A stretch of DNA of 64,000 bases from Deltaproteobacteria bacterium (GTDB lineage Bacteria > Desulfobacterota > DSM-4660 > Desulfatiglandales > HGW-15). The stretch is taken from positions 1 through 64,000 of the forward strand of contig JAFDEE010000031.1 in NCBI GenBank assembly GCA_019310525.1, given 5' to 3'. The position numbers were made by a program, and so were the translations under genes. Position 1 is the stretch's first letter. Each line of letters opens with the position of its first letter. The notes under the pieces were generated by a model. The model had not been told where the DNA came from and searched no databases. It saw nothing but the letters and a program-made list of their open reading frames with translations. Shown piece by piece: positions 24,434 through 59,689 of this stretch.

Positions 24434-24545
24434 GTCCGCCGGGGGACTCTTCGTCCCTTCAAATGCTTTGTCACGACCCGGAAAAAATGCTATAGAATGC
24501 CCCTGAAATTGGCAACCGATTATTCCTGTCTTGGGGATTTAGTTA

Positions 24546-24715
24546 GTGTCCATCCATGAATGAGAAAATTTGGGCAAGGTCAAGGAAGGCGAAAATTTTA
24601 ACCGCCCCGCTTGGGACGACAAGCGGGACAAGCATCCATACATTGAAGTATTTCAAGGATTAAAATTTGAGCCTGACGCAGAGATTGCGGAAATTAGCCA
24701 TTTATGGATGGGCAC
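24546..24715. mobile_element. Inverted-repeat element, family 2 copy D1
   Basis: The ends GTGTCCATCCATGAATG and, on the other strand, GTGCCCATCCATAAATG are inverted repeats. TAGTTA precedes and TAGTCA follows, a 6-bp target duplication with one mismatch. The core (CAAGGTCAAGGAAGGC, GAAAATTTTAACCG, ATTGAAGTATTT, then GGATTAAAATTTGAGCC) is shared with D2 and D3. D1 also carries an extra hairpin (CCCGCTTGGG...AAGCGGG) in the middle. It separates the two divergent operons and lies just upstream of the ketoreductase. Confidence 0.8.
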
Positions 24716-24768
24716 TAGTCAAGGACGAATTCTCCGGGGAACCCCCGGGGTGAAGGAGAGGTTGGGAC

Positions 24769-31034: not shown

Positions 31035-31148
31035 TTCGCACCGGGAACCGGGCGGGAATACAAAGCAATGATTGAAGAAGATTTTTTAAACTCCCTCTAT
31101 GGCATTTTTTGCCTTTCTTCACGCGTCCCGTCCGGTTGATAAAGATTC

Positions 31149-31291
31149 GAGACCTTTGAAAAACGCTCCCTTTTGCCCAATCCCGGCGTCAGGCTCAAAT
31201 TTTAATCCTCGAAATACTTCAATGTATTCCTGTGGTTAAAATTTTCACCTTCCTTGACCTTGAACAAAATTGAACGTTTTTCAAAGGTCTC
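31149..31291. mobile_element. Inverted-repeat element, chimeric copy D3 (family 2 core, different ends)
   Basis: The ends GAGACCTTTGAAAAACG are perfect inverted repeats and unrelated to the GTGTCCATCC ends of D1 and D2. Flanking GATTC direct repeats (31144-31148 and 31292-31296) look like a 5-bp target duplication. The interior, read on the minus strand, is the same core as D2 (AAGGTCAAGGAAGG, GAAAATTTTAACC, AGGAATACATTGAAG, GGATTAAAATTTGAGCC). It lies in the roughly 490-bp non-coding gap after the ketosynthase operon; the remainder of that gap shows no gene. Confidence 0.8.
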
Positions 31292-31522
31292 GATTCGTTG
31301 TTTCGTGTGGCCACATTTCTGGAAAAAGACTACATTTTATTATTATAATTTTCTGCTCGGTGCCGAATAGATAAAAAGAAGGAGAAGGCAAATACAGGAC
31401 TGCCTGATCCTGCTTCCCGGGAATGGTAAAGCGGACACCCGCACTCCAGATGGGAAAGACTGTAAAGTGTTTCTTCCCGTTTGCTAGAAATTTCCTGAGA
31501 AGCGGTGATGAGGGAGGAGTAT

Positions 31523-52825: not shown

Positions 52826-52955
52826 GAGGGCGGGGTCCGATGGGTTGTGGACGGATCCTCGGTTTGAGTCTGACTCAGCTTGTCACGCCGTAGCCGTGTC
52901 GAAGGCGGAAGATTGGGTGGAAGAGGACGTTTTGCAAAGGTCTTGAAAAAACGGC

Positions 52956-57675: not shown

Positions 57676-59526
57676 ATGCATAAACTACTCACTGATTCTC
57701 CTGGAACCAAGATGCTGTTGCTGGGCAACGAGGCCATCGCCCGGGGCGCCATGGAGGCGGGAGTCGCGTTTGCGACCTGTTACCCGGGAACACCCTCATC
57801 TGAAATCCCGGAACAGTTTTTCAACATCAGCAAGGAGACCGATCTCTACTTCGAGTATTCAACCAATGAAAAGGTGGCGATGGAAGTCGCTGCAGGTGCG
57901 GCCGTCAGCGGACTTCGCACCATAGTAACCATGAAACACGTAGGTTTGAATGTGGCGGCGGACCCCTTGATGACCCTTGCCTATACGGGGGTAAATGCAG
58001 GCATGGTCATCATAAATGCCGACGATCCATCCCTGTTTTCCAGCCAGAATGAGCAGGACAACCGCTTTTACGCCCGTCTCTCGGGCCTGCCCATGCTGGA
58101 ACCCACCAATGTGCAGGAAATGAAGGATGTCACCGTCCATGCATTCGAGCTCTCCGAGGCGTTGAAACTCCCCGTAATCATCCGGACCACGACCCGGCTG
58201 GCACACATCAGGGGGCCCGTGGTACTGGACGAGATGAAACCACGAAAGAGGGCCGGCTATTTTGAAAAGAATCCCTTCCATTTTGTCACCGTGCCGGCCG
58301 TATCCAGAAAACTCCACGGATTGCTGCTGGAAAGGGATGAAAAGGCGAAAGAAATGGCCAAGGATTTCCCTTACAACGAAGTCATCGGAGACGGCAAGTG
58401 GGGGGTGGTGGCCAATGGCGTCAGCGTCAATTACGTAAAGGACGCTGTTTCGGACCTGGGTATCGCGGACCGGGTGCGGATCCTGAAATTGGGAATGACA
58501 TGGCCCCTGAACAAGACCTACATTGCGGATTTCCTGAGATCCGTAGAGAAGGTGCTGGTGGTGGAAGAGCTCGAGCCCGTGCTGGAGAATGACCTCAAGG
58601 TCATCGCCCAGGAAAACGGGATCACCGTCCCTATCGAGGGGAAGGGCGTGGGTAGGCTCTCCAGGCTTTACGAGTACGACCCCCGAATGGTGAGAGAAGC
58701 GGTGGCGGCCTATTTCGGTATCGACTATACATCCACCCCCCCGGTGGATGTCTCCGACCTTCCGGAGCTTCCCGCCAGGCCGCCCAACCTCTGCCCCGGG
58801 TGTCCCCACCGGGCGACCTATTACGCCGTGAAACAGGTTTACGGGAATGTGGATTCCATCCGCCCCACAGACATTGGATGCTATACCCTGGGGCTGTTGC
58901 CGCCCATCTCCATGGCCGACTTCGTGATCTGCATGGGATCCTCGGTGAGTTCGGGTTGCGGATTTGCAACGGCTACCGACCAGAAGGTCGTTTCCTTTAT
59001 CGGGGATTCGACCTTCTTCCACTCGGGGATCACGGGCCTGATCAATGCGGTCCATAACAACCACAAGTTCACCCTTGTCATCCTGGACAACGGCACCACG
59101 GCCATGACAGGACACCAGCCCCATCCAGGAATGGACGCCTCGCCCATGGGTTTCGACTGGCCCCAGATTTCCGTGGAAGACGTGGTGCGGGGATGCGGGG
59201 TGAAGGATGTCCATGTGGTCAAACCCTTCAACCTGAAGAAGACCATCGAGGCGGTCAGGGCAGCCTATGAATATGACGGGATTTCGGTGATCATTTCCAA
59301 GGAGATCTGCCCCCTGTTCGCGAAGTCCATCGGTAAGGCCAGGAAGGGCAGGCCCTTCACCGTGGACCAGGAGAAATGCAAGAATCACCGCGATTGCCTG
59401 AACCTGCTGGCTTGCCCCGCCATGTTCCTGGACGGGGAACAGGTGCAAATCGACAAGAATCTGTGTATCGGGTGCTCGGTGTGTGCACAGGTCTGTCCTG
59501 AAAACGCCATCAAGCCATTGAAATAG
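57676..59526 (+). CDS. iorA: Indolepyruvate:ferredoxin oxidoreductase, alpha subunit
   Basis: About 616 aa. The pyrimidine-binding half (about 20-330) opens LLLGNEAIARGAMEAGVAFATCYPGTPSSEI. The TPP/Mg site is GDSTFFHSGITGLINAVHNN to LDNGTTAMTGHQPHPG near 440-485. The C-terminus is a ferredoxin-like domain with CIGCSVCAQVCPENAI and a less regular first Cys group (CKNHRDCLNLLACP). It oxidatively decarboxylates aryl pyruvates to aryl-acetyl-CoA with ferredoxin, in anaerobic amino acid use or synthesis. The ATG at 57676 follows GAGGGGGA. Its TAG stop abuts, and is partly shared with, the left end of element D2. Confidence 0.95.
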   Translation: MHKLLTDSPGTKMLLLGNEAIARGAMEAGVAFATCYPGTPSSEIPEQFFNISKETDLYFEYSTNEKVAMEVAAGAAVSGLRTIVTMKHVGLNVAADPLMTLAYTGVNAGMVIINADDPSLFSSQNEQDNRFYARLSGLPMLEPTNVQEMKDVTVHAFELSEALKLPVIIRTTTRLAHIRGPVVLDEMKPRKRAGYFEKNPFHFVTVPAVSRKLHGLLLERDEKAKEMAKDFPYNEVIGDGKWGVVANGVSVNYVKDAVSDLGIADRVRILKLGMTWPLNKTYIADFLRSVEKVLVVEELEPVLENDLKVIAQENGITVPIEGKGVGRLSRLYEYDPRMVREAVAAYFGIDYTSTPPVDVSDLPELPARPPNLCPGCPHRATYYAVKQVYGNVDSIRPTDIGCYTLGLLPPISMADFVICMGSSVSSGCGFATATDQKVVSFIGDSTFFHSGITGLINAVHNNHKFTLVILDNGTTAMTGHQPHPGMDASPMGFDWPQISVEDVVRGCGVKDVHVVKPFNLKKTIEAVRAAYEYDGISVIISKEICPLFAKSIGKARKGRPFTVDQEKCKNHRDCLNLLACPAMFLDGEQVQIDKNLCIGCSVCAQVCPENAIKPLK

Positions 59527-59667
59527 TGTTCGTCCATAAATGAGAAAATTTGTGCAAGGTCAAGGAAGGCGAAAATTTTAACCGCAGGAATACATTGAAG
59601 TATTTTGAGGATTAAAATTTAAGCCTGACGCAGAGATTGCGAAAATTAGCCATTTATGGATGGACAC
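59526..59667. mobile_element. Inverted-repeat element, family 2 copy D2, inserted at the iorA stop
   Basis: The ends GTGTTCGTCCATAAATG and, on the other strand, GTGTCCATCCATAAATG are inverted repeats. GAAATA lies directly before (59520-59525) and after (59668-59673), a 6-bp target duplication. The core matches D1 and D3. Its first G completes the TAG stop of iorA. Removing the element and one duplicate leaves iorA and iorB about 15 bp apart, so it is a later insertion into a tight operon. Confidence 0.85.
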
Positions 59668-59689
59668 GAAATAGAAAAGGGAGGTGCCC

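Follow-up and report, generated by a model that had tools for sequence, protein, structure and literature searches.

A phylum-wide family of short mobile elements whose tips vary around a conserved folded core

Three short elements in a 64,000-nucleotide stretch of a Deltaproteobacteria draft genome (Desulfobacterota; contig JAFDEE010000031.1, positions 1 to 64,000; hereafter the window) raise the question of how one structured core came to be enclosed by two different kinds of terminal inverted repeat. An earlier note, made from the letters of the window, had proposed either recombination between non-autonomous elements or the capture of a functional core by different transposition systems. 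Its description of the core shared by these elements (D1, D2 and D3) was confirmed in both coordinates and features, and a core covariance model used to scan the window matched exactly these three. D3 is a complete type A element of 143 bp with an IS5-type tip (31149–31291, core on the minus strand). Its ends, claimed to be distinct from those of D1 and D2, proved to be perfect 17-bp inverted repeats (GAGACCTTTGAAAAACG, 31149–31165, plus strand; second end 31275–31291, minus strand) flanked by an exact GATTC duplication (31144–31148 and 31292–31296), and its core, a covarying three-helix fold, occupies 31178–31262 on the minus strand (covariance model 102.9 bits, E = 1.8e-24).

D1 and D2 are both complete type G elements on the plus strand. 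D1 (24546–24715; 170 bp) has a core at 24575–24687 (plus strand; 65.9 bits, E = 9e-15) that includes an extra hairpin module of ~33 bp (CCCGCTTGG..CAAGCGGGACAAGCATCC, 24605–24637, plus strand) at a site likewise occupied in other A and G copies, while D2 (59526–59667; 142 bp) has its core at 59555–59639 (plus strand; 104.6 bits, E = 6e-25). The common end and 6-bp duplications attributed to this pair were borne out for D2, with exact copies of GAAATA at 59520–59525 and 59668–59673, but only in part for D1, where TAGTTA (24540–24545) and TAGTCA (24716–24721) agree at five of six bases; moreover, the G-type ends are not identical, varying among copies (D1 left GTGTCCATCCATGAATG, D1 right GTGCCCATCCATAAATG, D2 left GTGTTCGTCCATAAATG). 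D2 sits exactly between the alpha and beta subunit genes of indolepyruvate ferredoxin oxidoreductase, both of which are unbroken. The insertion point is the alpha-gene stop codon (59520–59530), and TAG can still be read across the duplicated target and the initial G of D2, such that the alpha stop is retained and the operon order is intact. A truncated type A element at 52860–52944 (plus strand), of which the right half survives with a decayed tip and two of the hairpin modules, is a relic and the fourth member of the family in the window; it was absent from the earlier list.

Comparison of 136 complete elements drawn from 48 genomes or records, with a standard length of 141–143 bp, distinguished six tip types. 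Tip G (GTGTCCATCC) was associated with a 6-bp duplication in 33 of 58 cases, tip A (GAGACCTTTG) with a 5-bp duplication in 47 of 84, and tip C (GTGYCYGAACGAAAACT) with a 6-bp TA..TA duplication; the remainder were tip D (GAAGTCATCTCAAAAAT), tip E (GAGSCAGTTTCAAAACG, duplication mostly 4 bp) and, in relatives, tip F (GAGGCTGTCC), which has CTAG-like flanks that were exact on both sides in one of eight. Distant genomes contained further types: G170, for example, has GGGTACCTTGAAAAAT, and in G275 the ends are CCTCTAAAAAT. The proposal that unrelated elements had captured the core did not survive this comparison: all six tip types lie in the same register, equidistant from the core in bodies of 141–143 bp, and their consensus tips share 6–12 of 17 bases against a random expectation of 4.5, with G and A agreeing at 10 of 17. 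The common length and register, together with the shared tip bases, therefore indicate that the elements are homologous over their full length and vary chiefly in the tip. The tips thus represent old homologous variants of one element, not independent captures.

A search for transposases with matching ends located an ISNCY-family source for the G ends and an IS5-family source for the A ends, both in relatives. The ISNCY-family IS (NF033593; L133 and L151) have ends GTGCCCATCCRGAAATGGG or GTTTCCATCCGGAAA and 6-bp TA-rich duplications (exact in L151; TAGATA/TAGCTA in L133), so that the tips of D1 and D2 agree with them in both ends and duplication length; G tips were also present on both sides at loci L377 and L406. 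The IS5-family IS (NF033581; L352, L353 and L354) have ends GAGACCTTTGMATAA or similar, of which the first 12 bp are identical to the A tip of D3, and exact 5-bp duplications at L352 and L354, again in agreement with D3 in both respects; GAGACCTTTGCAAAA is the published end of the IS5-family ISNme1 (PMC4596501). From these matches we infer that the tips of D1 and D2 belong to an ISNCY transposase and that of D3 to an IS5 transposase, each of which would mobilise the elements in trans. An IS1182-family IS (L382; NF033551) has one exact GAGGCTGTCCGAGAATAG end, corresponding to the F tip, beside CTAG, and an imperfect other end at a contig edge; F tips are probably served by an IS1182-type transposase. 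Against this, the IS1182-like ends in L141 show similarity but no identity.

Likeness between these IS and the elements was limited to the tips: the strongest matches to seven IS extended over 12–19 bp, with short chance matches elsewhere. The elements, which are short and non-coding with near-perfect inverted ends and target duplications, are therefore type II MITEs. The ISNCY, IS5 and IS1182 IS would be the source of the MITE tips and of the duplication length; unlike the MITEs they encode a transposase, and the interior of the MITEs does not stem from any of the IS copies that were examined. The idea of a structured core served by different transposition systems holds in so far as ISNCY and IS5, with their differing duplication lengths, are concerned, and fails as regards capture by unrelated elements.

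The own genome of the window (G000, a 3.78 Mb draft in 158 contigs) yielded no complete IS whose ends match, the matching transposases coming from relatives; a DDE_Tnp_1 search of G000 yielded three transposases, none of them an IS bounded by either tip type. Around the transposases read in relatives, none was found for tips C, D or E, and pairs of C, E or F tips lying 1–3.5 kb apart were rejected as IS, as they flank ordinary genes. Derivation from IS200/IS605 or REP/RAYT elements was likewise rejected, inverted ends and target duplications being present. At L130 (G000:C62), two G-type tip fragments flank a DDE transposase element whose ends are CAATGTCATTAACTTAA and which was possibly inserted into such a MITE.

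The core was found far beyond the three elements of the window. In G000, where 40 of 301 first-look candidates were scored, at least 40 strong, near-identical matches and one marginal match were recorded, and the true copy number is probably above this scored count. Exact A tips numbered 162 and G tips of the form GTGYCCATCCATAAATR 152, with none for the reversed control; chance is excluded because of these many core matches and tip counts when set against the control. Within an 864-kb sample of G000 both the A and G types were common, core orientation relative to the left arm was constant, and many copies contained additional hairpin modules, placed at a small number of fixed positions in the core, with identical modules in A and G copies. 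Five kinds of small GC-rich hairpin module were distinguished at such sites in both tip types (e.g. 24605–24637 in the window; L093, L106, L119, L120). Truncated and decayed copies were common, and a group with GTTTCCATCCATAAATGGCC ends consists of deletion derivatives that have lost the core and kept the subterminal arms (L094:1128, L106:8398, L105:11329).

Elsewhere, the core was present in 17 of 41 relatives and, by covariance model, in 39 of 198 genomes sampled over the phylum, whose members mostly reduce sulfate. The named public-scan records containing copies were all sulfate-reducer-type MAGs, labelled Desulfobacterales, Desulfobacteraceae, Syntrophobacterales, Deltaproteobacteria or similar, and in some cases merely Proteobacteria or Pseudomonadota. 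No viral, phage or plasmid copies were found in IMG/VR or in phage and plasmid collections, and literature searches covering comparable elements of sulfate reducers, as well as the letters of tips and core, returned nothing about this family. The original finding holds, and its extent exceeds the first description: the tips of the family vary, and its folded core is conserved.

Whether the two end types have exchanged interiors was considered from the relatedness of their cores. In most genomes a core was closer to same-type cores elsewhere than to other-type cores at home, which indicates that the tip types are old. In G000 the relationship was reversed: A and G cores differed by 0.02–0.03, the nearest same-type core elsewhere lying at 0.05. 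Eight sampled G-tipped elements of G000 carry an A-type core together with A-type subterminal arms (GGCAATTTTGTT, GGGCAAAAGGG-like), and all eight are flanked by an exact 6-bp duplication. Either these elements moved with G tips after gaining an A-type interior, or A-type bodies gained G tips; as read from the sequences, conversion of the homologous interior would be the simplest route. Recombination between the two end types, the first of the proposals made earlier, has accordingly occurred in this genome. Mixed-end elements were rejected as proof of exchange, and the argument is based on the G-tip/A-interior elements instead: L009, the sole element with a G left and an A right end, has no duplication and is situated close to the end of a contig, and in L275 an A element adjoins the end of another element.

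Two rival accounts bear directly on this evidence. The ends of D3 might be mere decayed versions of those of D1 and D2, in which case there would be one element type, one transposase and no exchange. The shared register and the agreement of G and A tips at 10 of 17 bases accord with such an account, which the earlier note had listed among its refuting conditions and which is true at great depth; it fails for the exchange that took place recently in G000, attested by the eight recombined elements with their exact duplications, and it is at odds with tip types that are sharply defined and abundant, each with separate IS relatives and a distinct duplication length (6 versus 5 bp). As an explanation of the whole it is very improbable and largely refuted. 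It is scarcely credible that misassembly of a draft genome containing hundreds of repeats produced the mixtures: the division of G000 into 158 contigs and the position of L009 lend themselves to that account, but the exact duplications of the G-tip/A-interior elements occur at eight separate loci within contigs, and several tip types occur together in low-contig genomes such as G025.

The consensus fold of the 136 elements comprises a subterminal stem, an internal loop in which UCAAGG faces ACGCAGA, and three helices: helix 1 (AGGC/GCCU), helix 2 (AAAUUUUAACC/GGAUUAAAAUUU) and, after a second internal loop (RCA/GA), helix 3 (GGAAUAC/GUAUUUC). Folding back extends over the full element, tips included. 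Covariance analysis revealed the strong covariation characteristic of structured RNAs, with compensatory changes at 12 of 21 pairs and scores that were reached by none of 500 shuffles, slid controls all being far lower. In the phylum-wide set, 195 double-changed cells were recorded versus 60 when shuffled, in an alignment fitted to the model and tilted in its favour. No Rfam family matched the element at gathering score in either the window or diverse relatives, and the core appears to be a structured-nucleic-acid family absent from Rfam 15.

Compensatory changes of this kind would also be yielded if the element had no function, its inverted repeats being matched by foldback-templated repair that copies arm to arm (quasipalindrome correction) and its core being shared by common descent alone, an account with which the many truncated and decayed copies agree. 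Such repair, however, predicts zero strand polarity, whereas the elements are markedly polar. Among group consensuses, where the consensus is a Watson–Crick pair, G.U exceeded A.C by 61 to 14, and a mutational contribution to this bias is possible because variants within genomes show a comparable excess (33:12). With the tips removed, the sense strand was the better folder in 135 of 136 bodies, and for D3 the predicted sense fold has −66 kcal/mol (z = −10.8) versus −44.5 for the antisense. An origin by repair would, in addition, leave unexplained the unpaired blocks UCAAGG, RCA/GA and ACGCAGA, which are conserved across the phylum, and is considered decidedly improbable. The centre of the element seems to be retained for something besides transposition.

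The transposon anatomy is well supported. Mobility signatures, matches of G and A tips to transposases, the shared body, covariation, fold polarity and recent exchange in G000 are all demonstrated. The reading that we prefer, with slightly better than even confidence, is of a MITE that is a transposase generalist, with selection acting on its interior as a single-strand fold, probably as RNA in read-through transcripts. D1, D2 and D3 would on this reading be members of one old non-autonomous DNA family of ~142 bp that encodes nothing and is built as tip, subterminal arm, core fold, arm and tip. The outer 10–17 bases would choose which cellular IS5-superfamily transposase cuts and pastes the element: GTGTCCATCC (6-bp duplication) would go with an ISNCY-type enzyme, GAGACCTTTG (5-bp) with an IS5-type enzyme, and GAGGCTGTCC probably with one of IS1182 type. 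Tips would diverge with time, and recombination or conversion between the homologous interiors of co-resident families would generate new combinations of tip and body. Selection would hold the interior to a single-strand fold that is read on the sense strand and has conserved internal loops; copies among co-transcribed genes would be read through, and a host factor may bind or process the folded RNA, by which means the insertion would be tolerated.

Genomic orientation bears on whether the fold acts as RNA or as DNA. Between tandem genes the sense strand agreed with the genes in 54 cases and opposed them in 30 (p = 0.012), a weak bias derived from crude gene calls and one that was reversed in the distant genome G275; copies of the own lineage exhibited no replichore bias (29 versus 27). 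In G275, a single contig, the sense strand was opposite to the leading strand in 28 of 31 copies, and in 19 of 19 in an even sample; the replichore bias there has a p of about 5e-6 (binomial, by hand), and copies track the replichore better than local gene direction. These G275 values would suit a fold maintained as DNA, in which the sense strand, when single-stranded during replication or excision, forms a hairpin that aids end pairing or recognition by host or transposition factors, with no part for RNA; the folding back of the entire element, tips included, and the tolerance of G.T in single-stranded DNA as well would be consistent with such a role. Nevertheless, DDE transposases work on double-stranded ends, the duplications here are clean, unlike those of IS200/IS605, and the own lineage combines a nil replichore bias with a weak gene-orientation bias instead. 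A purely DNA-level explanation is hence regarded as unlikely, and an RNA-level role, which we infer to be the most likely, is favoured over it. A bolder proposal is advanced only tentatively, at well below even confidence: that a functional RNA (or single-strand) motif, hitherto undescribed and spread through the phylum, makes up the core and rides in interchangeable vehicles, of which there would be at least six, and probably at least nine, tip types with different transposases, its fold being conserved by a host effect such as the processing or binding of read-through transcripts.

Bacterial MITEs are usually seen as IS debris with an irrelevant interior. Here the interior is conserved and the transposase-binding tips are variable, which raises the testable questions of why the folded core of a parasite should be under selection and how a non-autonomous element switches transposase. 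Among known systems, ATR of Neisseria (with ISNme1 ends) and BrickBuilt of Porphyromonas are type II MITEs (PMC4596501; review PMC10969869). The present family resembles them in being short, non-coding and multicopy with inverted ends, target duplications and IS5-family-like ends (GAGACCTTTGCA), and differs in having at least six tip types on one body, some of them matching different families of transposase, a phylum-wide distribution and a covarying core. Correia/NEMIS and ERIC are MITEs with structured transcripts, NEMIS RNA having been proposed as an RNase III substrate (PMC2229807). Like them, the present elements are about 100–150 bp long and intergenic with a transcript predicted to form a long hairpin; unlike them, which are known from particular genera and have a single end type, the present family has covariation and loop conservation that span a phylum. 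The hundreds of copies per genome, the tip-swapped elements and the large covarying alignment together constitute a ready experimental and comparative system.

Pneumococcal BOX elements and BIMEs are modular repeats, and share with the present elements the occurrence of modular hairpins at fixed places; in contrast to both, the modules described here lie inside an element bounded by terminal inverted repeats and target duplications. Finally, a divergent branch of the core with a GC-rich apical stem (GCGCGGAGGCGTA..TACGCCGCACAAG) was recorded at L468, L448 and L444 in G146 and at L244, and represents a candidate subfamily.
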